A DNA stretch of 64,000 nucleotides from Kribbella albertanoniae (lineage in GTDB: Bacteria > Actinomycetota > Actinomycetes > Propionibacteriales > Kribbellaceae). The stretch lies in assembly GCF_004348455.1 (NCBI RefSeq), contig NZ_SMKA01000006.1:1-64000 (forward strand). The letters are read 5' to 3'. This document shows, piece after piece, positions 7,108 through 63,297 of this stretch. The notes under the pieces are model-generated. The model worked only from the letters and a program-made list of their open reading frames with translations, was not told the DNA's origin and did not search any database. Both the position numbers and the translations under genes were made by a program. Every line of letters begins with the position of its first letter. The stretch's first letter is position 1.

Positions 7108-7194
7108 GCCGAACCTCCACTCTGGCCGCGCGCCGCCGACGCAGAACGTCGTTCGGCACTGACCGTGTAACGCGATGGCACGGACCGTGGTCAC

Positions 7195-7210
7195 TGTGAC
7201 CTAGGTCACA
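7195..7210. promoter_or_regulatory. CRP/GlxR-type operator
   Basis: TGTGACCTAGGTCACA is a perfect 16-bp palindrome that matches TGTGA-N6-TCACA, the CRP/GlxR consensus. It lies between the divergent lipoprotein gene (start 7107, -) and the membrane protein/two-component operon (start 7294, +), so it could control either. Confidence 0.65.
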
Positions 7211-7214
7211 GCAG

Positions 7215-7229
7215 ACCCCCTACGGGGGT
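7215..7229. repeat. Short perfect hairpin ACCCCC-tac-GGGGGT
   Basis: A 6-bp GC-rich stem with a 3-nt loop, 5 bp downstream of the CRP-type palindrome. It may be a leader hairpin of the operon starting at 7294. Confidence 0.35.
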
Positions 7230-7293
7230 ACGGGTCCCGAGTTGGCTCCGTGGCTGGAGGTGCCGGCAGCCCGAAATTTCTACGCTCGGTGAC

Positions 7294-7848: not shown

Positions 7849-7862
7849 AAGAGTCAATCGTG

Positions 7863-38383: not shown

Positions 38384-38631
38384 CCTATCAGGTCGTCTGG
38401 AGCGAACGTGCTCTGGATCAGGCCGCGGGATACCTCGAGGAGGATCCCGACGGGCTCGAGCAGCTCATGGCCGCGATCGACACGCTCGCAGACGAGCCGC
38501 GGCCGGATTGGTCGGTGGAGTTCGGATCGCCCGGGATACGCCGCCTCGATGTCGGCCGGTTCCGCGTCCTCTACGACATCTATGCCAGTTCCGTCGTGAT
38601 CGTCGTCATCCACGCCGGTCAACTCGGCTGA
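38380..38631 (+). CDS. Toxin, RelE/ParE family
   Basis: An 83-aa toxin of the RelE/ParE fold (VVWSERALDQAAGYLEEDPDGLEQLMAAIDTLADEP..., GIRRLDVGRFRVLYDIYASSVVIVVIHAG). The basic/aromatic late residues (R in GRFRVLYDI, H in VIHAG) fit a RelE-type ribosome-dependent mRNA endonuclease better than a gyrase-targeting ParE, but this is inference. GTG start inside the antitoxin's last codons. Confidence 0.85.
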   Translation: MTYQVVWSERALDQAAGYLEEDPDGLEQLMAAIDTLADEPRPDWSVEFGSPGIRRLDVGRFRVLYDIYASSVVIVVIHAGQLG

Positions 38632-38633
38632 GA

Positions 38634-38691
38634 GCCACCACCTCCGCGGGTGGGGGATCACCTCTATCCGCGGGTAGGCGAGTTAAGGTCG
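38634..38691. repeat. Two adjacent short inverted repeats
   Basis: CCACC-TCCGCG-GGTGG and CTATCCGCGGGTAG follow each other in the gap between the toxin gene and the FAD oxidoreductase gene. The first may terminate the toxin transcript; the second lies over the likely promoter of the next gene. Confidence 0.4.
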
Positions 38692-38696
38692 TAGGC

Positions 38697-40292
38697 ATGT
38701 TGCCGCGCAGTGTTGATGCTGTGGTGATCGGTTCGGGGCCGAACGGGCTGGTGAGCGCGATCGGGTTGGCCGATGCCGGGTGGGACGTGCTGGTGCTGGA
38801 GGCCGCGGACACCTTTGGTGGTGCGGTGCGGTCCACCTCCAGTGACGGCTGGGTCAGCGACCGTTTCAGCTCGAACTATCCGCTTGGGGTCGCGTCACCG
38901 GTGATCCGGGCGCTTGAGCTTGAGCGGTTCGGGCTGAAGTGGGGGCACGCGCCGCTGCCGCTGGCGCATCTGCTGGATGCGGAGGACGGGACGGCGGTGG
39001 CGATCCACCCTGACCCCGAGGACACCGCGAAGTCGGTCGGCGCTGAGCATCCGGGTGATGGCGAAGCGTGGTTGCGGCTCTACCAGCAGTACGTCGCGCT
39101 TCGTGAGCCGCTGTTGAAGTCGCTGCTCACGACGTGGCCGCCGGTGTCGCCGGCGATCAAGCTGGTCCGCAAGCTCGGGTCGGCCGGGGAGCTGTTGCGG
39201 TTCGCGCGGTTCATGGCGATGCCGATGCATCGGATGGGCAAGGAGCTGTTCGCCGGTCCGCGAGGTGCTGCGTTGCTGGCTGGGAATGCGCTGCATGCCG
39301 ACGCGCCGTTGTCGGGCAGTGTCAGCGGCACGATGGGCTGGTTGCTGGCGATGCTCGCGCAGGATGTTGGGTATCCGGTGGCAGTCGGTGGATCGAGTGC
39401 GTTCTCCGGTGCGCTGGTGGCTCGGGCCGAGCGGGCGGGTGTGCTGTTCGCTGCGTCGATGCCGGCGACCTCGGTCGAGGTGAGCGGTGGGCGGGCGACC
39501 GCCGTACTGACTGCTTCGGGGGAGCGGGTCGCGGTGGAGCGGGCAGTGATCGCGGACACCTCGGCACCTGCCCTGTACGACGGTCTGTTGTCGGAGGCAA
39601 CTATCCCGGCCGGGTTGCGGCGGGATCTGGATGAGCGGTTCGAGTGGGACTACCCGACAGTGAAGTTGAACTTCCGGCTCAGTGGGGCGATCCCGTGGAA
39701 GGCGGCCGAGGCGCGGTCGGCCGGGGTGGTGCACCTCGGTGGCACGGCCGATGAGCTGGTGCATCTGGCGGCCGACCTGGATACCGGGCGCCTGCCGTCG
39801 CAACCGTTCTTGCTGATCGGGCAGACGACGAAGTCGGATCCCTCGCGATCGCCTGCGGGTACTGAGGCCGTCTGGGCGTACGCGCATCTGCCGCGCGGCG
39901 TGGCCGACGATGAGTCGGCGGAGAAGCTGGCCGGCCGGATGGAGCGTGCGATCGAGCGGTTCGCGCCGGGCTTCGGTGCGTTGATCATCGATCGGGAGCT
40001 GCAGAGGCCGAGCGTGCTCGAGGCGGGGAACGCCGCGCTGGGCTACGGTGCGCTTGGCGGTGGCACGATGCAGCTCCAGCAGCAGTTGATCTTCCGGCCG
40101 ACAATCGGTCTCGGCAGCCCGCGCACCTTCGTCAGCGGTCTGTATCTGGGCAGCTCGGCGATTCACCCTGGCGGCGGCGTCCACGGCGCGTGCGGTCATC
40201 TTGCCGCCCGTACGGCGTTGCGCGACGCGTCCCTGCTCGGCCCGGTCACGCGGTCGATCCCGGCAGCCGCGCTGCGCCGCCTGCAGAAGTGA
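38697..40292 (+). CDS. Phytoene desaturase-like FAD oxidoreductase (PYROXD2-type)
   Basis: A 531-aa flavoprotein: dinucleotide-binding VVIGSGPNGLVSAIGLADAGWDVLVLEA, followed by GGAVRST, and the C-terminal FAD motif SGLYLGSSAIHPGGGVHGACGHLAA. It belongs to the NAD(P)/FAD-dependent phytoene desaturase/PYROXD2-like group; no other carotenoid genes are nearby, so a carotenoid role is unlikely. ATG 38697 has AAGG 8 nt upstream. The next gene overlaps its stop. Confidence 0.85.
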   Translation: MLPRSVDAVVIGSGPNGLVSAIGLADAGWDVLVLEAADTFGGAVRSTSSDGWVSDRFSSNYPLGVASPVIRALELERFGLKWGHAPLPLAHLLDAEDGTAVAIHPDPEDTAKSVGAEHPGDGEAWLRLYQQYVALREPLLKSLLTTWPPVSPAIKLVRKLGSAGELLRFARFMAMPMHRMGKELFAGPRGAALLAGNALHADAPLSGSVSGTMGWLLAMLAQDVGYPVAVGGSSAFSGALVARAERAGVLFAASMPATSVEVSGGRATAVLTASGERVAVERAVIADTSAPALYDGLLSEATIPAGLRRDLDERFEWDYPTVKLNFRLSGAIPWKAAEARSAGVVHLGGTADELVHLAADLDTGRLPSQPFLLIGQTTKSDPSRSPAGTEAVWAYAHLPRGVADDESAEKLAGRMERAIERFAPGFGALIIDRELQRPSVLEAGNAALGYGALGGGTMQLQQQLIFRPTIGLGSPRTFVSGLYLGSSAIHPGGGVHGACGHLAARTALRDASLLGPVTRSIPAAALRRLQK

Positions 40293-45396: not shown

Positions 45397-46632
45397 GACT
45401 CCGGCAAGGTCGAACAGGTCAGTCAGTGTGAACGACCCGGTCTCATGGCCAGGCAGAGTGGGACGCCAGTCGTCCGGCGCGGTGACCTGCGCGAGCAGGG
45501 CGTCGGCGAGCAGGCGACTTCCCAGCGGGCCGAGCGTGGCGCCGGCGGTCACGACCTCAGCTTCGGCGAGCAGGTAGTACCACAGGGGCGTGGAGCGATC
45601 GAGGCCGTACGGCTGGAGCTCCGCCAGGTCGGCTGGAGCGAGGACCGGTACGCCGAGTGTCTCGGCGATCGCCTGGCCGGACGGAACCTGCCAGGTGAGG
45701 TGCCGCAGCAGATCACGCTGGGGCAGCGAGACGGGAGCGTCGCCGCTCGGCAACGCTTCCCGCGGGAGCTGGAACAGCGGCGTACAGATGGAGCGGTCCA
45801 GCTTCTGCCCGCGGGCGGTCAGCAGGTGCCGCCAGTCGACGAAGCGCTGCGGATCGCGGCGGCCGCCGCGCAGGTCTGACCCATCGGGGTGGAAGAGATA
45901 GCAGGCCAGGTCGTCATGCACCCGATAGGCCGGCCGCAGCTGGGCATGGCCGATGCGGAGCGCGATCTGGAACTCGATCGGCAACGCATCGGCCGGTTGC
46001 CGCGTGAGCCAGGCCCAGGTGCCGGGCTGGATCAGCGCCGGCAGGTACTCGTGCTGCACGATCCACTGGTAGTGCCAGACGACCTCGCGGCGGTATTCAT
46101 CGAAGCTCTCGACACCGGCCGACCGAAGCCGATCGACGACATGATTGTGGAACCGCAGCACCGCGGCATGCAGCCCGCTGAGAATCACAGTGTCGTCGTT
46201 CCGCAGATCCACGGACATCGTCGTACCGTCCGGAGCGCGCGGCACGTCCTCGTACCGGCCGCCGTCGCCGACCAGCAGTTTGGCGGGGTCTGCCGGGTCG
46301 AAGTGGAGTCCGGGTGGGCCGTCCGAGTACACCGAGTCCAGGTCCAGGCCAGGGGTGCGCTGGTTGGTGACCACGCGCGGATCGGCGGGCCGGCCGAGCC
46401 GCGAGCGCGGATCGAGGGACAGGTCGTGGCTGACGAACTGTCCGAAGAACGCGCTCACGGCGTCCTGTACGCCGGTCCCTGGCTGGTCGGCGAGGACCTC
46501 CGGACTCTGGCTGAGGTCGTCCCGGGCGTCGAGCGGACCGTTCGGGCGGCCGAGTTCGAGCAGTGCCGCGACAACCTCGGCCGTGTTGTCCGCGAACGGC
46601 GGCAGGGCAAACGCCCTCGTGTACGGCGTCAT
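45364..46632 (-). CDS. Animal-type heme peroxidase
   Basis: A 422-aa member of the peroxidase-cyclooxygenase (An_peroxidase) family. The distal motif is FFGQFVSHDL (Q65, H69 and Ca2+-ligand D70), RNDDTVILSGLHAAVLRFHNHVVDRL covers the R-x-N and LHxxFxRxHN region, and RIGHAQLRPAYRV gives proximal H229. It oxidises substrates with H2O2. No signal peptide is visible. Its ATG directly follows the stop of a fulvocin C-like precursor gene (TGAATG), so it may modify, export-protect or act with that peptide. Confidence 0.85.
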   Translation of the reverse strand: MTPYTRAFALPPFADNTAEVVAALLELGRPNGPLDARDDLSQSPEVLADQPGTGVQDAVSAFFGQFVSHDLSLDPRSRLGRPADPRVVTNQRTPGLDLDSVYSDGPPGLHFDPADPAKLLVGDGGRYEDVPRAPDGTTMSVDLRNDDTVILSGLHAAVLRFHNHVVDRLRSAGVESFDEYRREVVWHYQWIVQHEYLPALIQPGTWAWLTRQPADALPIEFQIALRIGHAQLRPAYRVHDDLACYLFHPDGSDLRGGRRDPQRFVDWRHLLTARGQKLDRSICTPLFQLPREALPSGDAPVSLPQRDLLRHLTWQVPSGQAIAETLGVPVLAPADLAELQPYGLDRSTPLWYYLLAEAEVVTAGATLGPLGSRLLADALLAQVTAPDDWRPTLPGHETGSFTLTDLFDLAGVLDRAGSSLGG

Positions 46633-47550
46633 TCAGCCGCAGTGTCCATCGCAGTGGTACGACCAGGCGTCCCCGCAACCGAATCTCGTCCGCGTGCAGT
46701 TGTTCGCCCGGAACCAGCAGGTGCCATCGCACCAGTCGTCCCAGGTGGAGCACGAGCAGTCGCCGGCCGGGGCCATCCCGGCGTTGTCGGACGGACCGAG
46801 GGTACGGAAGAGTTGGTTGCCCTCGCGTTTCTCGTACGCCGAGTTCACCAGCTCGCCGAATTGATCCCGGCCGGCGAAGTCCTCGGCCGGGTACTCGAAA
46901 CCACGCCGTACGAACGCCTCGAACTCGTCCAGGGCTGCCGCCTGGTCGCGCGTCACGACGCGGGCGCCTGCGCGGTAGCGGCGGGTCTGCTCCAGCCAGA
47001 GCTCCTGGCGCGCGGCCACGGGCAGCTCGCCGTACACGGCCTTCCGATACGCCATCGGCAGTCGCGTGAACTCGTCGTACCGGCGCGGGAGTTTGTCCTT
47101 GTTCGCTGCGATCCAGGCGGGGATGTCGCTGGCCTTGCCAGTCGCGAACGCGGGTGCGCGGCCGGTGAGCACGATGCCGGCGGCCATCCCGGCTCCGGCC
47201 CCGAGTCGCAGGAACTGCTTGCGGTTCAGCCCGGCGGCGGGCCGCGAAGATTGCTGCAGCTGGCCCAGACTGCGGAGTACGGCGAGCGTCGTCCGGATGC
47301 CGAGTGTGCGGACCAGCGGGGCGACCAGGGCAGGTCCGGTCCACGCGGCGACTGATTCCCGCACTCGGAGCAGGGTGGGCCGCCACGGCGCATCCGCGCC
47401 CAGCGTCTCGTGCCGCCAGCGGGTCACGTCGTCGTTCTGCAGCGGCAGGACATCGAGCCGGCCGGCGGTGGCCTCTTGTACGGCGGCGGCGATGGCTCGG
47501 CAGTTTCCGCAGGACGCGTCGAAGGCGAGGATCCAGCGTTCGTCGGGCAT
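46633..47550 (-). CDS. Fulvocin C-like bacteriocin-related protein with thioredoxin-like N-terminus
   Basis: A 305-aa protein in three parts. Residues 1-60 hold C14-G-N-C17 in a DUF393/thiol-oxidoreductase-like setting. Around 107-137 a basic NRKQFLRLGAGAGMAAGIVL segment looks like an internal Tat-type or single-pass signal, ending APAFA. The last 43 residues contain eight Cys (265, 267, 274, 278, 285, 292, 300, 304), matching the size and Cys count of fulvocin C of Myxococcus. The C-terminus is thus probably exported and disulfide-bonded. RBS GGAG 5 nt before the ATG. Confidence 0.7.
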   Translation of the reverse strand: MPDERWILAFDASCGNCRAIAAAVQEATAGRLDVLPLQNDDVTRWRHETLGADAPWRPTLLRVRESVAAWTGPALVAPLVRTLGIRTTLAVLRSLGQLQQSSRPAAGLNRKQFLRLGAGAGMAAGIVLTGRAPAFATGKASDIPAWIAANKDKLPRRYDEFTRLPMAYRKAVYGELPVAARQELWLEQTRRYRAGARVVTRDQAAALDEFEAFVRRGFEYPAEDFAGRDQFGELVNSAYEKREGNQLFRTLGPSDNAGMAPAGDCSCSTWDDWCDGTCWFRANNCTRTRFGCGDAWSYHCDGHCG

Positions 47551-51577: not shown

Positions 51578-52396
51578 ATGAGGACATATGACGGCGCGTC
51601 TGCCCAGACGACGAGCGCGGCGGAGGAACTGCGGGACAGGTTGTCGAGGCCGCTGTTCAACCCGGTGCTGAAGACCGTGGTTGGGGACGGCAGTCTGGAC
51701 TATGAGGTGTACGTACGCACCAAGGAGTTGCTGTCGCTGCAAACTTCTGCGGAGTTGCTGACGGATCCGGACGAGTTGATGTTCCAGGTCGTTCACCAGG
51801 CGCAGGAGGTCTGGCTCAAACTCCTGTCCCACGAGCTGACCGAGATCGTCGGCGACCTCGACCGTGACGACTTGTGGGAAGTAGCCGCGCGGCTCGAGCG
51901 CGTGAACCGGATCACCGCTTGTCTTGCCAACGAGATCAGGGTTCTGGAGACGCTCACTCCGGACACCTATCAGGTCATCCGTCGCAGTCTCGGCAACGGC
52001 AGTGGTCAGGAGTCGCCTGGCTTCAATACAACCCAGACGGCGGCCCAGTACGTCGCGGAGGCGCTCGATCGGATGCTGGCTCGGAGGAACATCCGGATCA
52101 GTGACGTCTACCAAGCCGCCGGGCCGACTGATCTGAAACGGATCTGCGAACTGCTGCTGGACTTCGACGAGCGGTACCAACTGTGGTTGATCGCCCATTT
52201 CATGCTTGTACGGCGGACGATCGGCGTCGGCCGGGATGTCAAGGCACTGGACGGGGTCTCGACCCGGATCCTGATCGGCCGGATGACCAAGCCACTGTTC
52301 CACGCGCTCTGGCGAGTCCGGGAAGAGCTCACCGCGGAGTGGAGCAGGGAAGGTGGCCATCAGCCGGGCTCGGATCGGAGCGTGCAGCAGGCATGA
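51578..52396 (+). CDS. Tryptophan 2,3-dioxygenase-like heme enzyme
   Basis: A 272-aa TDO-superfamily protein. LDYEVYVRTKELLSLQ and ELMFQVVHQAQEVWLKLLSHEL (H73) match the substrate-side helix, IRRSLGNGSGQESPGF the following loop, and AHFMLVRRTIG (H207) the heme-ligand helix. The canonical GTGGSxG loop of TDOs is replaced by DVKALDGVSTRIL, so it may use another substrate or do another oxidation. ATG 51578 is chosen; ATG 51542 is an alternative, with GGAGG too close. It overlaps the next gene (ATGA). Confidence 0.7.
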   Translation: MRTYDGASAQTTSAAEELRDRLSRPLFNPVLKTVVGDGSLDYEVYVRTKELLSLQTSAELLTDPDELMFQVVHQAQEVWLKLLSHELTEIVGDLDRDDLWEVAARLERVNRITACLANEIRVLETLTPDTYQVIRRSLGNGSGQESPGFNTTQTAAQYVAEALDRMLARRNIRISDVYQAAGPTDLKRICELLLDFDERYQLWLIAHFMLVRRTIGVGRDVKALDGVSTRILIGRMTKPLFHALWRVREELTAEWSREGGHQPGSDRSVQQA

Positions 52397-53508
52397 ACCA
52401 ATCGATCCGGGCCGAGTTCCCGCTGCTGGCAGACTCCGTCTATCTGAACAGCAACTCGACCGGCGCCACGCCCCGCGGCGTGGAGCAAGTCCTGCAGAAC
52501 TACTGGCAGACGTTGAGCACTTGGCGTGACTCAGCCTGGGGCGGATGGCTGGCTGAGCTCAACGGCTACGTCGAGGCACTCGCGTCGTTCATCGGGGCCC
52601 CCGCGGGAACCGTGGTGACCGACACGAACGTCAGCACGCTGCTCGGCAGGATCGGCACCTGTTTCGACTTCCGCGGCGAGCGGAACAGAGTCGTCACCAC
52701 CGACCTGGAGTTTCCCACTGTTCCGTTCTTCTGGCGTGGCTTCGCCCGCTACGGAGCTGAACTCGTGGTCACCGGGACCGGCGGACCCGTTTTCGACATC
52801 GAGGCGGTGGAGGATGTGATTGACGAGCGCACCCGGCTCGTCTGTGTATCCCATGGCAGCTACACGACCGGCGCGCTTCTCGATCTGGAACGAGTCGTCA
52901 CTCGCGCCCACCAGTACGGCGCTCTGGTCGTGGTCGATGTCTTCCAGACCATCGGGGCAGTACCGCTTGACGTCGTCGCGCTCCAGGCAGATTTCGTCCT
53001 GGGTGGCGCGCACAAATGGATGTGTGGCGCTCATACGGCGTTTCTGTACGTGCGCCAGGAACTGATCGAGAGTTTGTACCCCGCGGCCACCGGGTGGTTC
53101 GCCGGCGCGGACCCCCTCTCATTCCAGGAGACAGGGTGGGCACCTGATGCCAGACGGTTCTCGGGCGGTACTCCGATCCCGATCACCGCCATGATGTCGC
53201 GGGTCGGGCTGGACCTGCTTGCCGAAATCGGTGCCGAGAAAATCCGGGCACATTCTCTGCGCTGCACCGACCAGCTGATCAGGCGCGCCGACGCAGCCGG
53301 GATCGAGGTGCGCACGCCGCGGACCCCAGAGCACCGCGGCGGCATGGTGAATCTCTGTTTCCCCGGCGACCGGACAGCGGCCGCGGACCTGGCAAGCCGT
53401 GGTCTGATCTGTAGCTGGCGGAACGGACTGCGAGTCGCCCCGCACATCTACAACACCATTGACGAGATCGACCTGTTCATGGACGCTCTGGCAGAGGTAC
53501 GACGATGA
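52393..53508 (+). CDS. Kynureninase-like PLP enzyme (aminotransferase class V fold)
   Basis: A 371-aa fold-type I PLP enzyme. VVVDVFQTIGAVPLDV gives the D182/Q185 cofactor contacts and FVLGGAHKWMCGAHTAFLYV the Schiff-base lysine K208. The pattern is close to kynureninase-like and isopenicillin epimerase-like enzymes. Placed after a TDO-like gene it probably cleaves or transaminates a kynurenine-type product, giving anthranilate or a relative. Overlaps both neighbours by 4 bp. Confidence 0.75.
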   Translation: MNQSIRAEFPLLADSVYLNSNSTGATPRGVEQVLQNYWQTLSTWRDSAWGGWLAELNGYVEALASFIGAPAGTVVTDTNVSTLLGRIGTCFDFRGERNRVVTTDLEFPTVPFFWRGFARYGAELVVTGTGGPVFDIEAVEDVIDERTRLVCVSHGSYTTGALLDLERVVTRAHQYGALVVVDVFQTIGAVPLDVVALQADFVLGGAHKWMCGAHTAFLYVRQELIESLYPAATGWFAGADPLSFQETGWAPDARRFSGGTPIPITAMMSRVGLDLLAEIGAEKIRAHSLRCTDQLIRRADAAGIEVRTPRTPEHRGGMVNLCFPGDRTAAADLASRGLICSWRNGLRVAPHIYNTIDEIDLFMDALAEVRR

Positions 53509-54527
53509 CGCCGAGAGCACTGATGAGCCTGCTGTTCAACGGAACCAAGGCAATCGACGTACTACAGACTGCGCTGGACCTCGGACTACTCGACGCCCTG
53601 GAGCCCGGCCCAGTCAGGCTCGGCGATCTCAGTGAGCGGTTCGAACTGGTACCGCTGCGCCTGTACAAGCTCCTCGACTGCTTGGAGTGCATCGGCCTGG
53701 TCGAACGGGTGTCCCAGACACCAGGCGAGCTCTGCGATGTCGGGTACCGCGCGATCGCCGGGACCAGACTTGCCGCATTGGAGGTTCTCGGACCAACTTC
53801 GATCGAACGCGACCGCGACCGGTACCCCTGGGCCAGCCTGCATGGCCGGCTGGCTGAGACCCTCCGCGGCGACTTCAGCATGCCGGGCGAAGCCTTCAGT
53901 TGGCCGCCCGCCGACGAAACACAGGTGACCGCCTTCGAGCGGAGTATGGCGGCAGGGCTCGGGCCGTTCATCGAGACCTTCCAGGCCAATGCCGAACGGC
54001 TCTGGAGAGATCGGGGCAACCTACGACTGCTGGACGTCGGAGGCGGCGACGGCACGCTGGCCGCCCGGCTGTTGCCTGGGGCACCAGGCGTGATGATCGA
54101 CGTCTACAACCTGCCCGCCGTACAACCTCTGGTGAACAAAGTCCGCGATGAGCATGATTGCGCCGACCGGCTGGGGTTCGTCGGAGGCGACTTCCTCGCG
54201 GAGCCGTTGCCCACGGCATACGACGCTATGTCATTCGTTCGGGTTCTGCACGACTGGCCGGCGCCGGTAGCTCTCACGCTACTCCAGAAGACCTTCGATG
54301 CACTCGACACCGGCGGCCGAGTGATGATCTGCGAGGAGTTCCGGAACGCTGACCGTCTCGCCAAGCAGTTCTTCTGGTCATATTTCCTGATCGGCGTCGA
54401 CAGTTGCTCCAGCATGCTCCGCGACGTGGAACAGTACGCCGACATGCTGATGGCCGTTGGTTTCGCCGACATCGAAGTACTCCCCGGACCTGTCGAAATC
54501 ATCGTCGCCACGAAGCCATCAGCATGA
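53505..54527 (+). CDS. SAM-dependent O-methyltransferase (Methyltransf_2)
   Basis: A 340-aa methyltransferase: N-terminal winged-helix dimerisation domain (LDLGLLDALEPGPVRLGDLSERFELVPLRLYKLLDCL), SAM motif LLDVGGGDG (175-183), and VLHDW with catalytic His H249. Members methylate hydroxyls of phenols or antibiotics. It is the third gene of the TDO/PLP enzyme unit and would cap its aromatic product. The stop lies 2 bp from the convergent LAL regulator stop. Confidence 0.85.
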   Translation: MTPRALMSLLFNGTKAIDVLQTALDLGLLDALEPGPVRLGDLSERFELVPLRLYKLLDCLECIGLVERVSQTPGELCDVGYRAIAGTRLAALEVLGPTSIERDRDRYPWASLHGRLAETLRGDFSMPGEAFSWPPADETQVTAFERSMAAGLGPFIETFQANAERLWRDRGNLRLLDVGGGDGTLAARLLPGAPGVMIDVYNLPAVQPLVNKVRDEHDCADRLGFVGGDFLAEPLPTAYDAMSFVRVLHDWPAPVALTLLQKTFDALDTGGRVMICEEFRNADRLAKQFFWSYFLIGVDSCSSMLRDVEQYADMLMAVGFADIEVLPGPVEIIVATKPSA

Positions 54528-54529
54528 AT

Positions 54530-57118
54530 TTAGGGTTCGAGCCAGACCCGGGCCTGCTCGACGGCCTCGGAACGGGTGTGAACTCCGAGTCTGGCGAGGA
54601 CTGCCGCTACGTGGTTGCTCGCAGTACGCACGGAGACGACGAGGCGGTCCGCGATCTCGGCGTCAGTCAGGCCCTGGTTCAGCAGCCTGAGCACCTCGAG
54701 TTGACGCGCTGTCAGACCGGCGGGGTTCTGCCGGGAGGTGAGGGCTCGACCACGCGGAATGGTGGTGGCGCCTTGCTCGCGCAGCAGACGTCGAGTGACC
54801 TTGGCCAAGGAGGTGGCGTTGATGGAGCCAAGTACGTCGAGTGCCTCGAGCAGATCAGCTGGATCCGGGCTCTCGGTCAGGGCCAACGCGTACTCGTAGC
54901 GGTAGCCTGCGGTGCGCCATCGATCGGCGGCTTCGCGCCAGCGTCCACTGGTCAGCAAGTCGAAGGGACTGTCCGTCTCGGGGGCCGCTACCTCGTGACC
55001 TGCCTTGGTGAGCCAGTACCCAAGCTCCGGCCAGGGCCAGCCGGTTCGGATTCGGCGTTGCCGGGCCTGGGCGTACGGGGCTGCAGCGATGTCTATGACC
55101 GCAGCAGCATCACCGCGCAGCCATGCCTCTTCAGCCGCGGCGGCCGCTGCGTGGCCGATCCATAGCTGTTCACCGATCCGATGGCTGAGCTCCAAGGCGG
55201 AGGCAAGAAGCTCACCGGCTGTTGGATCCCCGGTTCTGGTCTTGATACGTCCGAGCGTGACGAGTGCAGGGCAGCGGAAGAGTGTCTGGGCACCAACGGC
55301 TTGCTCGGCAGACCGGACGGCTTCGCTCCAGCGTCCTCGTGAGGTCTCGGCCACCGCTCGGAGGACGTGGAGCATGTCGAGCCAGCCGAACTGCTCTGCT
55401 CGTTCCGCCAGTTCCAGGCCGGCCGTGATGAACTGCTCTGCATCCGCCGCCCGGAACTGATCGAGCAGGTTCCAGGCGATGTTGACATAGATCCGGCAGG
55501 CATCCTCCTTGGCGCCTACATCGAGGGCGACCTGCAGTCCTTCTTCCAGGGTCTGCATCGAGTCCGGCATTCCCAGCTGCCACAGGGAGGCGCCCAGGTT
55601 TGTGAGCGCGTGTGCCAGGGTTGCGGGGTCCTCGGTCTGCCTGGACATGGCAACGGCACGCTCAGCGGTCGGCATCGCCTTGGTCGGGTTGTAGGCGAGG
55701 ATGTCCAGCTGAGCTTGGTTGCTGTAGGCCCGGGCCAGTGATCGGGACGGTCCCAGCGGCTCAAGGACTCCGATCGCCTCTTCCGCCACTTGTTCAGCGG
55801 TCAGCCGATCTCCTCCCCACCAGTGCATTCGCGAGAGCCAACGCAGCCCTTCGCCGACGGCGACGTGATCTCCGAGCGATCTGCGCAGGTCGATCGCGCG
55901 CCGCTGTGCGGCTACCGCCTCGTCGCTCGCACCGATGGTGTACGACTCGATGGCGTACTCCTGCAACAGTTGAGAACGCTCGATGGGAGGGAACGCATCG
56001 GCGTACAGGAGGGCCGCTTGATAGTGGGCGACGGCCTGTCTGTGCGCACCACCGCTAGCCGCATCTCGAGCGGCTGCTGGGGCGAAGCGGACGATCGCCT
56101 GTTGATCGCCCGCGGCGACCGCGTGGTGGACGATTCGCGCGACATCGGCATCGCTGCGAGCGACCAGCGCGGTGAGAACGTTCTGATTGAGTTCCATGTA
56201 ACGCACGACTGGTAGCGAATCCGCAATGGCCCGCCGGGTGAGCTCATGCCGGAAGGAAACTCGTCGCGGTGTCACCTCGAGTAGTCCAGCCTCCTCAGCA
56301 TCCGCAAGCGCCCTGATGCCGCCAACCACGATTTCGTCCAGCAGCCAACGGTCGATGACCGTCGGTACGACGGCAAGCTGCTGGACGGCGGAATGGACTT
56401 CAGGCGACAGCCTTTGCAGCCGGTCCCGTACGGAGTCAACGACTGTGCTTGGTACTTCAGTAGCGGTGCCTGATGCGAGTACCTCGCTGACAAAGAACGG
56501 ATTGCCGGCTGTCGCGGCAAAGACGGCCGCCGCATCGAGTGAACTGTTCGCCGCGAGTTCGGCGACGCCGTCGGGTGTCAGCCGGTTGAGGGGTAGCCGT
56601 CGGCAAACGTCGCTCCCGCCGGTCACCCCCAAGAAATGCAGCAGAGGGCCGAGGGACAGGTCGTCGTCGCGATAGGTGAGCATGAGCACCACGGGCAGTT
56701 GTTCGATTCGCCGTACCAGGTATCGCAAGACATCCAGTGTGGCTTCGTCGGCCCAATGGATGTCTTCAACAGCGAGCAGGGTGGGGCGGCGGCTGTCTCG
56801 AAGCTCCGCCAGGAGCGCGGTCAGGAGCCGATCCCGGTCGGTGCCGATTTCCAGCTCAGTGGCCAGACCTGCGCTCACCTTGTCGGCCAGGTCACGGAAC
56901 GGACCGAGAGTCCGCGCGGTCTGCAGATCGTCGCAGTGACCAACCAGTGTCCGCCCTTCCGGGGGCATCCACGCAGCCATCGCTTCTACCAGCCTTGACT
57001 TGCCGATCCCCGCCTCGCCCGAGATGAGCACCACGGATCCGCTGCCGGACGCGGCCAGGCGGACCGCGGCGGTGAGCTCATCAAGCTCACGCTCACGCTC
57101 GACGATCCGGCGATTCAC
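54530..57118 (-). CDS. LAL-type transcriptional regulator (AAA ATPase, TPR region, LuxR HTH)
   Basis: An 862-aa regulator of the LAL class: Walker A SGEAGIGKSRLVEAM (34-41 core), Walker B LLAVEDIHWADEATL near 118, a long helical TPR-like middle and a C-terminal LuxR HTH (LTARQLEVLRLLNQGLTDAEIADRLVVSVRTASNHV). Such proteins are pathway-specific activators of secondary metabolism. It is convergent with the TDO/PLP/methyltransferase genes and divergent from the hydrolase gene. Start GTG 57118. Confidence 0.9.
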   Translation of the reverse strand: MNRRIVERERELDELTAAVRLAASGSGSVVLISGEAGIGKSRLVEAMAAWMPPEGRTLVGHCDDLQTARTLGPFRDLADKVSAGLATELEIGTDRDRLLTALLAELRDSRRPTLLAVEDIHWADEATLDVLRYLVRRIEQLPVVLMLTYRDDDLSLGPLLHFLGVTGGSDVCRRLPLNRLTPDGVAELAANSSLDAAAVFAATAGNPFFVSEVLASGTATEVPSTVVDSVRDRLQRLSPEVHSAVQQLAVVPTVIDRWLLDEIVVGGIRALADAEEAGLLEVTPRRVSFRHELTRRAIADSLPVVRYMELNQNVLTALVARSDADVARIVHHAVAAGDQQAIVRFAPAAARDAASGGAHRQAVAHYQAALLYADAFPPIERSQLLQEYAIESYTIGASDEAVAAQRRAIDLRRSLGDHVAVGEGLRWLSRMHWWGGDRLTAEQVAEEAIGVLEPLGPSRSLARAYSNQAQLDILAYNPTKAMPTAERAVAMSRQTEDPATLAHALTNLGASLWQLGMPDSMQTLEEGLQVALDVGAKEDACRIYVNIAWNLLDQFRAADAEQFITAGLELAERAEQFGWLDMLHVLRAVAETSRGRWSEAVRSAEQAVGAQTLFRCPALVTLGRIKTRTGDPTAGELLASALELSHRIGEQLWIGHAAAAAAEEAWLRGDAAAVIDIAAAPYAQARQRRIRTGWPWPELGYWLTKAGHEVAAPETDSPFDLLTSGRWREAADRWRTAGYRYEYALALTESPDPADLLEALDVLGSINATSLAKVTRRLLREQGATTIPRGRALTSRQNPAGLTARQLEVLRLLNQGLTDAEIADRLVVSVRTASNHVAAVLARLGVHTRSEAVEQARVWLEP

Positions 57119-57250
57119 CTGCCGATGATCTCACGCCGAACAGTGTCAGGACCGCAGGTTCCCTCCGGCGACATCTGTACGTTCCGCTCCCTGGCACTGG
57201 ATGGAACGCCACATCTGAGGAAAGGTTGCGTCGATGTTCTTGGAGGAGTT

Positions 57251-58288
57251 ATGTCTCGTACCTCACGTCGAGGCACTCGGACTTGCCTCGCGCTTGCGGC
57301 CGCAGTGTTCGCGGGGGTAGTGGTCGCCGCGCCGGCCTCGGCTGCACCGTCGTCCGTCGAGGTGGAGGTCCACACCGACATCGCCTATGCACCGGCGCAG
57401 CCCAGTACCAGCCGAGGTCATCTGCTGGATCTCTATGTGCCTGGCAAGTACGGCGGGACGAAGCGGCCGCTGCTCATCTTCACGGGTGGTAGCGGTTGGC
57501 TCGAGGACGATGGAAAGGAAGTTGCCCAGGACATCGCGCCGTACTTCAATGCTGCCGGGTACGTCGTGGCGGGGGTATCGACTCGATCGAGTGTGCAGGC
57601 CACGTTCCCTGCGCAGGTGCATGACATCAAGGCCGCCATTCGCTGGTTGCGAGCGAATGCTCTCACGTACGGGATCGACTCTTCGCGCTTTGCGGTGATG
57701 GGGGACTCGTCCGGAGGCTGGACAGCTGCGATGGCGGGGGTTACCGGCGACGTGCGGCATTTGGAGGGCACTGTGGGGGTAACCGGTGTGTCGAGCAAAG
57801 TTCAGGCCGTCGTGGATTTGTACGGTCCCGCCGATTTCCTCCAGATGGACGAGCGCATGCTGCCGGGTGCATGCGCCGCGTTCAATCAGATCTTCGGCTT
57901 GAGCAATTGCCACAACGACCCGCGGTCGCCGGAGTCGCTGCTCGTTGGGTGCGCCATTCAAGAGTGCCCTGACCGCGTCCGCGCGGCCAACCCGATCGCC
58001 TACGTCTCTCGCAACGATCCACCGTTCCTCATCGCACATGGCCAAGATGACACGATCGTTCCGCACCACCAGAGTGAACTGCTGTTCCGGGCGCTGAAAG
58101 GCGCCTGCGTCTCGGCGACGTTCTACTCCGTGCCCGGCGTCGGCCATAGCCCAGAAATCGTCTCTCCGGACAACCAGCCTGCCGCGGTTACTTCGACGCG
58201 AAACTGCCGTGTCGTTGATCCGCACAGGCAGCCGAGCCAGCCGACGTTCGACACAATCCGTGCGTTCCTCGACCGGGCACTCGGCTGA
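57251..58288 (+). CDS. Secreted alpha/beta hydrolase
   Basis: A 345-aa secreted serine hydrolase. Signal peptide 1-32 (RRGTRTCLALAAAVFAGVVVAAPASA). The nucleophile Ser is in VMGDSSGGW, Asp in HGQDDTIVP and His in GVGHSPE, in correct order; IFTGGSGWLEDDG near 90 is the oxyanion strand. It resembles acetyl xylan esterase-like or feruloyl/tannase-type hydrolases. Two Cys pairs may form disulfides. GGAGG 5 nt before the ATG. Possible role: activation or inactivation of the product outside the cell. Confidence 0.8.
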   Translation: MSRTSRRGTRTCLALAAAVFAGVVVAAPASAAPSSVEVEVHTDIAYAPAQPSTSRGHLLDLYVPGKYGGTKRPLLIFTGGSGWLEDDGKEVAQDIAPYFNAAGYVVAGVSTRSSVQATFPAQVHDIKAAIRWLRANALTYGIDSSRFAVMGDSSGGWTAAMAGVTGDVRHLEGTVGVTGVSSKVQAVVDLYGPADFLQMDERMLPGACAAFNQIFGLSNCHNDPRSPESLLVGCAIQECPDRVRAANPIAYVSRNDPPFLIAHGQDDTIVPHHQSELLFRALKGACVSATFYSVPGVGHSPEIVSPDNQPAAVTSTRNCRVVDPHRQPSQPTFDTIRAFLDRALG

Positions 58289-58367: not shown

Positions 58368-60242
58368 GTGGAACCTCGACCGGAGAGCAGGAGTGGCTCG
58401 GGGAACGTAGTGGAGATGGTGATGGCTGCTGGCCTGACTGACGACCTGACGGCGATGCTCGCAAGAGGCTTCGACGCCCTTGTGTCCGAGGGGGATCTGC
58501 TGATCAGCAGACGACTCTTCGAGGCGGCGTACCAGACCGCGCTGACGACCGGTGACCATCAGGCGATTGGGTTGGCAGCCATAGGCGGAAGTGGGCTGTG
58601 GGGCAACGAAGTTCGGGACGCACAGGGCTCGGCGAAGGTCCGGGCCAGGCTACGCAGGGCGCTCTCGATGGTTGATCCGCAGTCAACGCTCGGCTTGAGG
58701 CTGAGAGCAAGACTCGCCGGTGAGGATGACTATCGGACCGGCGACAGCGCGAAGGTTCTGGCCGTCCTCGACGAGGCTCGGCACCGGCCGGATTCGGAGG
58801 CGTTGGCGGACATTCTCAACGTCGCACACCATTGTCTGCTGGGACCTGATCACCGAGTCTTGCGGCGAGAGCTCGCTGCCGAGCTTCTCGAGCAGAGTAG
58901 CCACACCATGCGCCGCGGAGACCTACTGATGGGCATGCTGTGGAAGACGGTCGACTTGTTCCTGGATGGTGATCTACGGGCCGAGCGCAACCTCCTGGAA
59001 GTGCGACACCTTCTGGAGCAGAGGGGCCACCTGGCTATCGGCTTTGTGCTGGACGCGATGGACTGCATGCTTGCGATCCGGAGCGGCGATCTGGACCACG
59101 CCGAGAATCTGGCTCAGGTCTGTGCGCAGCGTGGCAGGGATGCCGGCGATGCGGACGCAACGGGTTGGTTCGCCGCGCAGATGGTGGCGATCAGGTGGTA
59201 TCAGGGTCGCATCGCAGAGTTGCTGCCGATGTTGCAGGAGGTGGTGCATTCACCGACCCTCAGCGTCACTGATCATTCGTTGTTCGCTGCCGTTGCTGTG
59301 TCGGCGGCAGCCGCCGGTGATGTCTCCAGCGCAGAATCTGCGCTGGCAAAACTGACTGGCCGCGATCTTGCGGATCTGCCACGCTCCAGCAGTTGGCTGG
59401 TGATGATGAACGGTGTTGTCGAGGCGGCGCACCTACTGAAGGACAGCCGAACCTCAGCGCGTGCGTACGAGCTGCTCAGCCCTTTCGCGGATCTCCCGAT
59501 GGTGGCCAGTCTCGGAGTCGCCTGTTTCGGATCGGTCCATCACGCCCTCGGTGTCGCCGCACTCACGATGGGCGACGTGGACAAGGCGATTGCTCACTTC
59601 GCGACGGCCGCCGAGCAGAACCTTGCCCTGGCGCACTGGCCGGCCGTAGCCGCGTCACGACAGCGGCATGCTCTTGCGAAAGCGACAGCAGACGTCGAGG
59701 GCAGCCAGATCTCCGATCTCACCTGTATCAGATACGGGCAGGCATGGAAGATCGAGTCGGGTGATCGAAGCATCCTCCTCGCCCACAGTGTTGGCATGCT
59801 GCATCTGGCAGTTCTGATTGCCAACCCGGGCCGGGAGATCTACTCCGCTGATCTCGTCGCTGGGTTGTCTGAGCTCAGTCGGGCCGATGCCGGTACGGCG
59901 CTCTCGTCACAGCCGTTCCTTGACCGAGTGGCTGTTCAGAACTACCGGACGAGGCTGGCGGATCTGCGGATCGAGATCGAACAGCTTGAGTCGAAGAACG
60001 AGTTCGACGAAGTGGCGCGGGTGAAAGCCGAGCAGGCCTGGATCATGAGCGAGCTGTCTGCTGTTACAGGGATCGGTGGAGCTGTACGCCGCTTTCCCGA
60101 CGGTCACGAGCGGGCTCGTATCGCCGTAGGCAAGGCCATTCGCCGGGCGCTGGCCCGGGTGACCGAGTCGGATGCGGAGATCGGTGCCTACCTGCGCCGG
60201 ACCATTCATACCGGAGTCCGCTGCTCCTACCGGCCGACCTGA
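58368..60242 (+). CDS. TPR-like regulator-related protein without ATPase domain
   Basis: A 624-aa, mainly helical protein resembling the TPR-rich C-terminal half of LAL/SARP regulators. No Walker motif or HTH is seen. The last ~60 residues (GGAVRRFPDGHERARIAVGKAIRRALARV, then YLRRTIHTGVRCSYRP) match the tail found in several actinobacterial AAA-type regulators. It may be a partner or a split relic of one. Start GTG 58368 is weakly supported; GTG 58410 is possible. Confidence 0.65.
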   Translation: MEPRPESRSGSGNVVEMVMAAGLTDDLTAMLARGFDALVSEGDLLISRRLFEAAYQTALTTGDHQAIGLAAIGGSGLWGNEVRDAQGSAKVRARLRRALSMVDPQSTLGLRLRARLAGEDDYRTGDSAKVLAVLDEARHRPDSEALADILNVAHHCLLGPDHRVLRRELAAELLEQSSHTMRRGDLLMGMLWKTVDLFLDGDLRAERNLLEVRHLLEQRGHLAIGFVLDAMDCMLAIRSGDLDHAENLAQVCAQRGRDAGDADATGWFAAQMVAIRWYQGRIAELLPMLQEVVHSPTLSVTDHSLFAAVAVSAAAAGDVSSAESALAKLTGRDLADLPRSSSWLVMMNGVVEAAHLLKDSRTSARAYELLSPFADLPMVASLGVACFGSVHHALGVAALTMGDVDKAIAHFATAAEQNLALAHWPAVAASRQRHALAKATADVEGSQISDLTCIRYGQAWKIESGDRSILLAHSVGMLHLAVLIANPGREIYSADLVAGLSELSRADAGTALSSQPFLDRVAVQNYRTRLADLRIEIEQLESKNEFDEVARVKAEQAWIMSELSAVTGIGGAVRRFPDGHERARIAVGKAIRRALARVTESDAEIGAYLRRTIHTGVRCSYRPT

Positions 60243-60351: not shown

Positions 60352-63297
60352 ATGAGTGGACACGGCCCGCAATTGGGGTTCAGGATCCTCGGGCCGCTCG
60401 AGGTCCTGCGTGACGGCATGCGCGTGGAACCGCGCGGCGCCAAACTGCGCACGCTCCTCATCGACCTGCTGCTGCACCGAAAGCAGTACCGAACTGGTCC
60501 ACAACTGATCGACGATCTCTGGGCCGGACACCCGCCGGCCACCGCGCCCGGGATCTTGCGGAACTACTTGTCGCAACTGCGGGAACTGCTCGGGCCGGAA
60601 GTGCTGATCCGGCGTGGGGCCGGGTACGGCGTCGACATTCGCGCCGAGGAACTGGACAGCGAGCATTTCGAGCAGCTCTCGGTGCGGGCGCGAATCGCGG
60701 ATCGCGATGGCGACCTCGCCGCGGTCCTCGACTCGACGACGGCAGCGCTGGCTTTGTGGCGTGGTCAGGCGCTGAGCGACGTCGTCGCTACAGAGTTCGC
60801 TCAGCCGCATATCGCTCGGCTGGAAGAGCTACGGCAAGCGACAACCGAGCTGCACCTGGAAGCGACGATCGCGACGGGTCGACCGCAGGAGGCGATCGCT
60901 CCGCTGGAGGAATTGGTGGTCGTCGAACCGATGCGCGAGCGGCTCTGGTGGCTGCTGATGCTTGCGCAGTACCGGTGCGGCCGACAGACGGACGCCCTAC
61001 GCTCCTACCAGCGTGCACGGGCCGAGCTGGCAGCCCAGCTCGGCGTCGATCCCGGTCATGAGCTCCGCCAACTCGAAGTGGCGATCCTCAACCAGCGCCC
61101 TGAGCTCGACGACCTGCTCCGCCGCACCCCGGCACCGGCCGTCGTCTCGGGGTTACCGATCTCCGGTGTGCGTCCACTCCATCGCTACCGAAGTGCGCTG
61201 GTAGGACGGCAGGCCGAGTTGGACATCCTGGCCGTCCGTGTCGAGGCCGGAGCGGTGCTGACCCTGACCGGGATCGGGGGCGCAGGCAAGACGCGGCTAG
61301 CCATCGAGCTGGCGGAACGGCTGCGTCGCCTCTGGCCCGATGGGGTGGCGTTTGTGGATCTCGCGCCCGTGATCGACGAGGGGATGGTTGCCGCTGCCGC
61401 GCTGCTCGCTTTGGGGCTTGACGAGGAGCCGATCCGGCCTCCGCTCGACACCGTTGTCCGTGCGCTGCGGGATCGCAGGTTGTTGCTCGTGGTTGACAAT
61501 TGCGAGCATCTGAGTGACGCGGTCGGGCGGCTCACCGGCGCCGTGGTCGACGCTGCACCAGGCTGCGCGGTGCTGGCCACCAGCCGCACGCCGCTAGGAA
61601 TCCCCGGTGAGCGGATCTGGCCTGTGAGGCCGCTGGAGACCGACAACGAGCGGTCAGACGCGGTGCAACTGCTGGTGGAGCGCGCCGTTGCGGTGAATCC
61701 AGCTTTTCGCAGCGACGATCACACCGTCGAACTGGCTCGGCGGCTTGGTGGCCTGCCCTTGGCGATCGAGATGGTCGCGCCGTGGACTCGCACGCTGTCG
61801 ACGCTCGATATAGCGGATCGGCTCGAACAGTTGGTCGCGATCGGTGATCACACCAGACCGGAACGACAGCAGCGGATGGCGGCGGTCTTCGAGTGGAGCG
61901 ACCGCCGCCTGGATGCGGACACCCGTCGGGTCTACCACCGGCTCGGCGTGTTCGTCGGCGACTTCGACCTCGCTGCCGCCGAAGCAGTCGTCCCGGCCGA
62001 CGACGCAGGGCGGCCGGCCGTACTGGTGTCGCTCGGCCAACTGGTCGATCACTCGTTGGTCATGGCGGAGACGTCGAGCGGACGGGCCCGATACCGGCTG
62101 CTGGAGCCGGTCCGGCAGTTCGCGGCAGACAGACTCGTCGATGACGGAGACGACCTTGCCGTTCGTGATCGCCACCTGCGGTACTACCGGTCGGTCGCGC
62201 TCGGGGTCGGCAAACACGCAGCCGGGCCGGAGGCAACGACCTGGCTCGGCCGCGCCGACCAGGAGATCGCCAATCTGCGCGCCGCGCACGACCATGCGCT
62301 ACGGACAAGGCGCGCAGACGATGCCACGATCATGGCCGGTGGGTTGTATTGGTACTGGTGGATCCGGGCTTCTAGCACCGAAGGGATTGACCGCCTGCGA
62401 CGTTCCCTCGAACTTCGGCCTGGCCCCGGCCCGCGTGCTCGCGCCCGAATCGGCCTGGCGTCGTTGCTCATCCAGGCCGACCGGCACGATGAAGCTGCGG
62501 AACAAGCCGAGGCGGCGCTCGAGGACGCACGCCTCATCAATGACCCGCGGCTCGAGGCACTCGCGGTCGGCACCGTCGGTCGGATCGCGGCCGATCGCGG
62601 TCAGTACGACGTGGCTGAGACAATGCTGCGGAGTGCCCAGATCCAATTCGAGGCATTGGGCCACCGTGGGGGAACGGCATGGTGCCTGTTCGTCCGTTAC
62701 GTCGCCGCCGCATCGCCCGTTGCCCGTGCCCAAAAGCTACCCGGTCTGCGACGGGCCCATCGGATCTATACCGAGGACGGCATGCGGTGGGGCCAAACGT
62801 GGACGAGAAGCATGCTGGGCCTGGCCGCGATCCGGGAGGAACGGCTCGACGATGCGGCCCTCGAGCTGACTGCGGCGAATCGCCTCATCGACGAGGACGG
62901 TCTGCGCGACGAGCTCGCGGTCTACGCGAAATCCTTTCTGGGCGTGGTCAGCGCCAGGTCGGGACAGTTGCGGCTCACCGCCGATCTCCTCGCACAGTCC
63001 TTGACGATCGCGGAGGGATTTCCCGACCGGAGGCCGTTCGCTGCCTGGCGCTGGGCACTTGCTGAGGCCGCCGCTGCCGCTGGGGCCTCTGAGTTGGTCG
63101 CGCGCTCGCTCGGTGCCGGACACCGTCGTACCGATCCAACCGGGAACATGGTCGACGCTGTGCGACTCGCCGCTCTTCGCGCAGCGGTGGTCTCGGCGTT
63201 GGGCGAAGAACGCGCTGAAGTGCTGGCCAGTAGCGGGGCCCACGAGCAAGATCACCACCTGCTGGCTGCGCTCGAAGCCGCGCTGAGCAGCCGCTGA
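60352..63297 (+). CDS. SARP/AfsR-type regulator (BTAD, NB-ARC, TPR)
   Basis: A 981-aa regulator. Residues ~10-95 are the OmpR-like winged helix (LGFRILGPLEVLRDGMRVEPRGAKLRTLLIDLLLHRK), ~100-250 the BTAD domain, ~300-560 an NB-ARC ATPase with Walker A TGIGGAGKTRLAIEL near 306 and LLLVVDNCEHL as Walker B, and the rest a TPR-like region. Like AfsR, it would activate specialised-metabolism genes; the nearby TDO/PLP/methyltransferase genes are the obvious target. Two further regulators flank it. Confidence 0.9.
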   Translation: MSGHGPQLGFRILGPLEVLRDGMRVEPRGAKLRTLLIDLLLHRKQYRTGPQLIDDLWAGHPPATAPGILRNYLSQLRELLGPEVLIRRGAGYGVDIRAEELDSEHFEQLSVRARIADRDGDLAAVLDSTTAALALWRGQALSDVVATEFAQPHIARLEELRQATTELHLEATIATGRPQEAIAPLEELVVVEPMRERLWWLLMLAQYRCGRQTDALRSYQRARAELAAQLGVDPGHELRQLEVAILNQRPELDDLLRRTPAPAVVSGLPISGVRPLHRYRSALVGRQAELDILAVRVEAGAVLTLTGIGGAGKTRLAIELAERLRRLWPDGVAFVDLAPVIDEGMVAAAALLALGLDEEPIRPPLDTVVRALRDRRLLLVVDNCEHLSDAVGRLTGAVVDAAPGCAVLATSRTPLGIPGERIWPVRPLETDNERSDAVQLLVERAVAVNPAFRSDDHTVELARRLGGLPLAIEMVAPWTRTLSTLDIADRLEQLVAIGDHTRPERQQRMAAVFEWSDRRLDADTRRVYHRLGVFVGDFDLAAAEAVVPADDAGRPAVLVSLGQLVDHSLVMAETSSGRARYRLLEPVRQFAADRLVDDGDDLAVRDRHLRYYRSVALGVGKHAAGPEATTWLGRADQEIANLRAAHDHALRTRRADDATIMAGGLYWYWWIRASSTEGIDRLRRSLELRPGPGPRARARIGLASLLIQADRHDEAAEQAEAALEDARLINDPRLEALAVGTVGRIAADRGQYDVAETMLRSAQIQFEALGHRGGTAWCLFVRYVAAASPVARAQKLPGLRRAHRIYTEDGMRWGQTWTRSMLGLAAIREERLDDAALELTAANRLIDEDGLRDELAVYAKSFLGVVSARSGQLRLTADLLAQSLTIAEGFPDRRPFAAWRWALAEAAAAAGASELVARSLGAGHRRTDPTGNMVDAVRLAALRAAVVSALGEERAEVLASSGAHEQDHHLLAALEAALSSR

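Follow-up and report, generated by a model that had tools for sequence, protein, structure and literature searches.

A conserved three-gene unit encoding a TDO-superfamily heme protein, a kynureninase-like enzyme and a methyltransferase in Kribbella albertanoniae and scattered actinobacteria

Genes of the locus

The first 64,000 nucleotides of contig NZ_SMKA01000006.1 of Kribbella albertanoniae (assembly GCF_004348455.1), called the window in the following, carry at positions 51578-54527 three plus-strand genes, which we name HDO, KYN and OMT and which together are termed the trio or cassette. HDO (51578..52396, 272 aa) encodes a putative heme oxygenase of the tryptophan 2,3-dioxygenase (TDO) superfamily that is devoid of the GTGGS loop and of the aF/aG insertion. 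KYN (52393..53508, 371 aa) encodes, as judged from its domain match, a kynureninase-like class V enzyme dependent on pyridoxal phosphate (PLP), and OMT (53505..54527, 340 aa) a methyltransferase of the Methyltransf_2 family (PF00891). The genes are coupled by two plus-strand overlaps of 4 bp, both ATGA, at 52393..52396 between HDO and KYN and at 53505..53508 between KYN and OMT. These boundaries and overlaps agree with an earlier annotation made without database searches, here called the sequence-only reading, which had seen in the three genes a small route from tryptophan or a relative to a methylated aromatic product. We find the trio conserved in seven genomes, and it probably helps to make a small methylated aromatic compound.

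Conservation and distribution

A scan for HDO in one genome per species led to 27 loci. The whole trio was found in Jiangella anatolica, Microlunatus parietis, Nocardia vulneris, N. panacis, N. altamirensis and Rhizohabitans arisaemae (six loci, L034-L039), which together with the window make up seven cassette loci spanning five families. Identities to the window amount to 62-80% for HDO, 63-76% for KYN and 59-71% for OMT in these six loci, and in all seven the genes meet at both junctions in 4-bp overlaps, ATGA or GTGA. Regulators of the BTAD type occur near the trio in four of the seven (the window, L034, L038 and L039), orthologues of the LuxR-type regulator of the window, 63-64% identical, in L034 and L035 (Jiangella and Microlunatus). 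Furthermore, a CrtO/CrtI-like FAD oxidoreductase adjoins the trio in L034, L036 and L038 and lies approximately 6 kb off in L037.

Of 293 genomes searched in the order, 148 show some HDO match, while only the window's own HDO reaches the level of an orthologue (598 bits; next 68 bits), and therefore we regard the trio as sporadic. In 396 genomes of the phylum, the window's own HDO is again the only match at cassette level (517 bits), with four others at 112-154 bits. Judged by sequence matches, this is the kind of spread that specialised-metabolism genes show.

One match of the phylum scan to the cassette profile led to a variant locus in the actinomycete G496 (L087, 4853-9211), where KYN (59% identity) and OMT (61%) are preceded by two tandem HDO genes and all four genes are joined by 4-bp overlaps. 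By eye, the first HDO gene (8450-9211, minus strand), which gave the match, has DGSPGSP at the loop and Gln at the position of the substrate Arg, and the second (7035-8453, minus strand) has GTGYTEG and a Leu at the position of the distal His.

Sequence, phylogeny and predicted fold of HDO

HDO matches the Trp_dioxygenase family PF03301 over its first half (75.7 bits, cut-off 34.9) and TDO sequences once more near its C-terminal end; with the TDO equivalog TIGR03036 it scores 109.9 bits, below the cut-off of 390.7. In the alignment with canonical TDO the GTGGSxG loop is absent from the window HDO, so the earlier call of a superfamily member without the canonical loop is borne out. The aF/aG insertion is missing as well, visible as a gap in the alignment and also in the helices of the model. 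In place of GTGGS stands the loop A223-L-D-G-V227 (52244..52258, plus strand), the register of which shifts by 1-2 residues between alignment methods.

Residue counts refer to 27 HDO rows, seven from cassettes and 20 from other relatives (L058, which is cut, is excluded). The loop reads ALDGV in all seven cassette rows and SLK-(G/N)-x in all 20 others, with Asp and Lys, respectively, at position 225, and all 27 rows are devoid of GTGGS and aF/aG and carry GSGQxSPGxN where TDOs have SSGFQSxQYR. GTGGS itself is found in 31 of the 32 canonical-type loci examined, the exception being L079. A 240-aa TDO-like protein of G248 (L088, 8347-9069) keeps GTGGSSG though much of its aF/aG region is missing, and is a possible intermediate form.

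Three positions aligned with functional residues of the canonical enzyme XcTDO are invariant in all 27 rows: His73 (51794..51796) with the distal His55, Arg135 (51980..51982) with Arg117, which corresponds to the carboxylate-binding Arg118 of the heme enzyme MarE, and His207 (52196..52198) with the axial heme ligand His240, all on the plus strand. The same holds for Y131, F69, Y42 and Y45, and generally for the counterparts of XcTDO Tyr24, Tyr27, Phe51, His55, Tyr113, Arg117, Ser124 and His240, positions which in TDO bind heme, indole and carboxylate. For MarE, binding of these groups is described in PMC11904535.

The sequence-only reading had asked where HDO stands relative to characterised TDOs. 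A tree was built from 48 rows, comprising the 27 HDO rows, 16 of 30 clean canonical TDOs, L064-L067 and L079; L058 was again left out, and MarE is not among the rows. The cassette rows form a single clade (support 100/100) that groups (97/90) with 20 relatives belonging to other phyla, and the whole HDO branch is split from the canonical TDOs (100/100). Several branches are long, and an artefact may account for L040 standing next to the cassette. Members of the branch come from Actinomycetota, Planctomycetota, Acidobacteriota, Myxococcota and others, in 27 sequences plus further actinobacterial members.

The AlphaFold2 model of HDO (pLDDT 83.6, pTM 0.77) was compared with MarE (Streptomyces sp. 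B9173, maremycin; PDB 9CA3, 8VYY) and canonical TDO. Foldseek TM scores by query length are 0.71-0.76 for MarE and 0.59-0.67 for XcTDO chains (entries other than 1yw0). VIA-align gives Z 23.5 for MarE (rmsd 2.3, 233 aligned, 22% identity), Z 19.8 for XcTDO (rmsd 2.1, 213 aligned, 32% identity) and Z 12.1 for PrnB. Since MarE is best in fold and XcTDO higher in identity, HDO appears to be MarE-like in its build and closer to TDO in its residues. MarE scores 87 bits with the HDO subfamily profile, in a single stretch, and 39.7 bits with the canonical profile, over its first part only; no MarE match was seen for L067 in the PDB search.

Like MarE, HDO is a TDO-superfamily heme protein without aF/aG and with a non-GTGGS loop, and counterparts of His55, His201 and Arg118 of MarE are present. 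The two differ in most of their sequence, in the loop (ALDGV versus SLGGR) and at NGSG versus DATG. According to PMC11904535, aF/aG is absent from MarE too, with SLGGR for GTGGS and DATG for PASG. With the canonical TDOs (XcTDO, TIGR03036) HDO shares the axial and distal His, the carboxylate Arg, the Tyr/Phe pocket and the higher identity over the structural alignment, whereas the missing loop and insertion, the sub-cut-off score and the separate clade set it apart.

KYN and OMT

KYN belongs to the class V PLP enzymes and carries a KYNU_C domain, and its best PDB match is the kynureninase of P. fluorescens. With the kynureninase equivalog TIGR01814 it scores 91.2 bits, below the cut-off of 246.4. 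By sequence it is closer to kynureninase than to SufS, whereas the fold search, with a model of pLDDT 77.5 and a poor N-terminus, fails to separate kynureninase (1QZ9, TM 0.81 by query length) from SufS (0.80). The PLP lysine is Lys208 (53014-53016, plus strand), with His207 just before it. Counterparts of the Ser in NS(T/L)G and of Phe129, Asp201, PLP Lys227 (K208 in KYN) and the carboxylate Arg375 (R347) of the P. fluorescens enzyme are kept. The kynureninase-like label given earlier is sound as to class, domain and nearest structure, and does not hold at the equivalog cut-off and at three active-site positions that are taken up below. A KYN-like gene adjoins HDO in L041, L042 and L043 and lies within 4 kb in L040, L054 and L056, i.e., in six of the 20 other loci, some of which are on short contigs.

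The assignment of OMT as a methyltransferase proved right (PF00891, 71.4 bits, cut-off 22.3). Its VLHDW motif with His249 (54249-54251) is invariant in all seven cassettes, and the His of the HDW motif is presumably catalytic. The PF00891 family includes C- and N-methylating members; the conserved His favours O-methylation by OMT. Best matches are RedM and BchU-like proteins, and SibL is matched at 7e-13.

Primary kynurenine pathway in the host genomes

The genome of the window possesses a canonical TDO on contig C221, separate from the trio, and on contig C27 a kynureninase (394 bits) followed by KMO-like (kynurenine 3-monooxygenase), HAAO (3-hydroxyanthranilate 3,4-dioxygenase) and further genes. 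The trio is thus extra, and on this ground we reject the view that these genes are fully explained by primary kynurenine metabolism. The sequence-only reading would have yielded to a complete primary pathway elsewhere combined with an HDO inside the canonical TDOs; the pathway is present, yet HDO falls outside. Canonical TDO also exists in five of the six other hosts, i.e., in six of seven with the window. In Microlunatus parietis no canonical TDO was detected, and at E 1e-15 kynureninase was matched by the cassette KYN alone. No second PF03301 gene was found in any of the 20 other HDO genomes, which are mostly metagenome assemblies of unknown completeness.

Apart from the cassette, Nocardia vulneris has another set of genes for a TDO (loop GTAGTDG), a kynureninase and a methyltransferase (L079, G689:C2:94000-104000). 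A KMO homologue lies approximately 4 kb beyond this stretch, and its first open reading frames resemble, by eye, parts of a condensation-type enzyme.

HDO relatives in other settings

In genome G702, the HDO relative L049 is accompanied by genes for kynureninase (462 bits), HAAO, an aldehyde dehydrogenase, an arylformamidase-type protein (211.8 bits, cut-off 223) and a KMO-like protein in a row. L049 is the only PF03301 protein there, so an HDO without GTGGS is the sole TDO candidate of this genome. Plausibly, then, the HDO branch can open the tryptophan ring and make N-formylkynurenine, and L049 is the best sign of it. Relatives from Planctomycetes and other groups pair HDO with KYN-like genes without a methyltransferase.

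The HDO of G959 (L127, L128; G959:C16:20500-49000) has the loop GTQGTPVE and 36% identity to that of the window. Around it lie CoA-ligase-, thiolase- and enoyl-CoA-hydratase-like genes (by eye), a short-chain dehydrogenase/reductase gene and a bifunctional salicylyl-CoA 5-hydroxylase/oxidoreductase (1351.8 bits, cut-off 1078), a type which we take to cover anthraniloyl-CoA enzymes also. Further neighbours are indolepyruvate oxidoreductase subunits, a PF04199 (KynB-type) cyclase, two CrtO-like genes, PaaX, a cupin and a KYN-like gene. In G1000 (L119, L125; G1000:C61), HDO and a CrtO-like FAD gene are arranged back to back, and genes for a Liv-type importer, a cupin and a KYN-like protein are nearby. 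These settings suggest indole breakdown by the HDO branch, possibly of indole-3-acetate, and a CrtO-like enzyme as its recurrent partner. Given such catabolic surroundings, a divergent loop does not by itself mark an antibiotic pathway.

In L040 (9989-13710) a beta-eliminating lyase of the tyrosine phenol-lyase/tryptophanase type is encoded between HDO and the KYN-like gene. The neighbours of the acidobacterial and myxobacterial HDO relatives were looked up and gave no functional clue.

Function of the trio

We favour, with a confidence just short of even, a dedicated specialised-metabolism unit in which the indole of tryptophan or a close relative is oxidised, the side chain cleaved and the product methylated, the number of oxygen atoms being left open. 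The assignment to specialised metabolism is supported because the overlaps are kept in all seven loci, the spread is sporadic, BTAD regulators stand near four of seven trios and a canonical TDO exists besides the trio in six of seven hosts. The invariant heme and substrate residues of HDO, the setting of L049 and the KYN-like genes near HDO in six of the 20 other loci also speak for this reading. From sequence and predicted structure we infer a substrate, an order of steps, both chemistries and a product, as well as the biosynthetic role itself. HDO would be a heme oxygenase that has a histidine ligand and is built like MarE, and it would put oxygen from O2 onto the indole C2=C3 bond of L-tryptophan or of a near relative with a carboxylate group. 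The amino acid so oxidised would be the substrate of KYN, which would most likely break the side chain between C-beta and C-gamma and so free an aromatic of the 2-aminobenzoyl or isatin type, and OMT would add a methyl cap to this aromatic. The small route proposed earlier retains its conserved trio, found in scattered actinobacteria and additional to the primary kynurenine pathway; the kynureninase label of its second step is not supported, given the equivalog score and the residues of KYN.

Several observations weigh against this reading. While a KMO homologue is present in three of the seven hosts (the window, Rhizohabitans and N. vulneris), none was found at E 1e-20 in the other four. Arylformamidase (TIGR03035) exceeds its cut-off in none of the 14 genomes searched, and only G692, G693 and G702 show more than 120 bits. 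With neither KMO nor formamidase common to the hosts, nothing shown supplies a hydroxyl group for OMT to methylate after plain formation of N-formylkynurenine. KYN has Val, Gln and His at the positions of Asp132, His204 and Tyr226 of the P. fluorescens kynureninase, all three of which are kept in the four canonical kynureninase rows aligned; Tyr226 and Asp132 are important in kynureninase. In the canonical enzymes this Tyr directly precedes the PLP Lys, the Asp belongs to FP(T/S)D, and the His comes about three residues behind the Asp/Asn of the DLxH stretch. Moreover, 21 of 23 class-level KYN-like matches (26 less the window, Jiangella and G496) have no HDO in the stretches examined, which cover the locus surroundings only, and several lie, by eye, among housekeeping genes. 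The two with HDO nearby are those of G1000, in the first stretch, and of G959, approximately 18 kb away after extension. The partnership as a proof of kynureninase function is weakened by these 21 loci. Finally, the related HDOs in the catabolic clusters of G959 and G1000 are a warning that the trio of the window need not be biosynthetic.

The oxygen source leads to the first alternative, in which HDO would work as a monooxygenase like MarE and yield a 2-oxindole, a C3-hydroxy pyrroloindoline or a dioxindole amino acid, with KYN performing a retro-aldol or other PLP reaction. Such a product would give OMT its hydroxyl, and with four of seven hosts devoid of a KMO homologue the hydroxyl would come from the trio itself; this need for a source of oxygen is the strongest argument for the idea. 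The nearest predicted fold, the higher MarE score with the subfamily profile and the hallmark kynureninase residues missing in KYN point the same way, as do loop swaps from GTGGS to a MarE-like sequence, which push TDO toward monooxygenation according to PMC12312684. The same source reports that MarE without ascorbate mainly dioxygenates, which counts against it. So do the higher identity of HDO to XcTDO than to MarE, the differing ALDGV and NGSG motifs and the relative L049, which stands in for TDO beside a kynurenine operon. We consider this route somewhat unlikely. The sequence-only reading had pointed to TDO-superfamily monooxygenases, and as to placement outside the canonical TDOs, nearest fold and missing steering loop this was well founded; monooxygenation itself does not follow.

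A different substrate appears unlikely. It could be a des-amino indole acid, e.g., indole-3-acetate, or, by analogy with SfmD and TyrH of the wider superfamily, an amino acid resembling tyrosine. In favour stand the absence from HDO of the loop with which TDO recognises the ammonium group of its substrate, the G959 cluster, which fits ring opening of indole-3-acetate, and the lyase gene of L040. On the other hand, HDO is partnered in the cassette with a PLP enzyme, and such enzymes require an amino group; the HDO of G959 is only distantly related to that of the window, and the residues by which TDO contacts the indole are conserved in HDO.

Very unlikely is ordinary tryptophan catabolism, i.e., a second TDO and kynureninase that provide for the production of anthranilate or NAD, the methyltransferase being next to them by chance. 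This reading could draw on the HDO/KYN-like pairs without methyltransferase and on the catabolic roles suggested by L049, G959 and G1000, yet leaves unaccounted for an overlapped OMT kept in seven of seven loci and in the G496 variant, TDO, kynureninase, KMO-like and HAAO genes already present elsewhere in the genome, and the sporadic spread.

Relation to known pathways

Sets of TDO, kynureninase and methyltransferase belong to the pathways of actinomycin, sibiromycin and other pyrrolobenzodiazepines. The trio resembles them in bringing together a TDO-type, a kynureninase-type and a Methyltransf_2 enzyme, and differs in containing neither KMO nor non-ribosomal peptide synthetase. A copy of their 4-methyl-3-hydroxyanthranilate route was considered and is weakened by the four hosts without KMO homologue and the want of a clear formamidase in common. 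In the thiocoraline and sandramycin pathways of actinobacteria, the TDO TioF opens the ring of beta-hydroxytryptophan and the PLP enzyme TioG follows, as stated in PMC9962454. We liken TioF/TioG to the trio by this description, not by sequence, as a TDO on a modified tryptophan followed by a PLP enzyme; unlike that pathway, the trio holds no non-ribosomal peptide synthetase or cytochrome P450. The setting of HDO also differs from that of MarE, its partners being KYN and OMT in a window without a visible beta-methyltryptophan pathway.

Neither the superfamily nor the types of partner enzyme are new, and TDO-kynureninase-methyltransferase sets are a known idea as well, whereas this HDO branch, its loops and the minimal cassette appear undescribed. 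A search of the literature found no paper on the trio, most subscription journals being outside its coverage.

Whether heme enzymes of this kind insert one or two oxygen atoms is an open question in which the GTGGS/SLGGR loop has recently been implicated, according to PMC12312684. The HDO branch offers natural variants of this loop in a minimal three-gene setting, while the remaining residues of the pocket stay fixed. If the product were similar to N-formylkynurenine, the GTGGS loop would be dispensable for dioxygenation; if it were a new methylated aromatic, a small metabolite family would exist in at least five genera. Going further, one may picture a widespread, unstudied branch in which the deciding loop has been naturally rewritten (SLKG, ALDG, GTQGTP, DGSPGSP), some members acting on des-amino indoles and the cassette leading to a new class of O-methylated tryptophan-derived metabolites; as a whole this picture is doubtful.

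Further genes of the window

Upstream of the trio lies an AAA_28 gene divergent from HDO. Downstream, a large AAA_16/LuxR-type regulator (54530..57118, minus strand) is convergent with OMT and is followed by an alpha/beta hydrolase gene (57125-58288), a protein with a weak tetratricopeptide repeat (TPR) match only (58368-60242) and a BTAD (SARP-like) regulator with an AAA_22/NB-ARC match (60352..63297, plus strand). The hydrolase and both regulators are assigned by domain match. Three large regulators had been proposed here, of which two carry regulator domains and the TPR protein does not. The luciferase-like (LLM) gene (63334 to the window end, PF00296) is real too, and it is about 8.8 kb away from the trio rather than next to it.

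A CrtO/CrtI-like FAD oxidoreductase is encoded at 38508..40292 (plus strand) and is an uncertain candidate for a distant partner. The best match of the genome to the CrtO-like partner, 32%, lies at 38727-40220 within it. At 30-32% identity to the gene adjoining the trio in Jiangella and Nocardia, the view that it is the same partner is unsupported.

At 45364-47550 (minus strand) we observed an animal-haem-peroxidase-like gene whose neighbour has no Pfam match. This neighbour ends in a cysteine-rich tail of approximately 40 residues and resembles, by eye, a peptide precursor.

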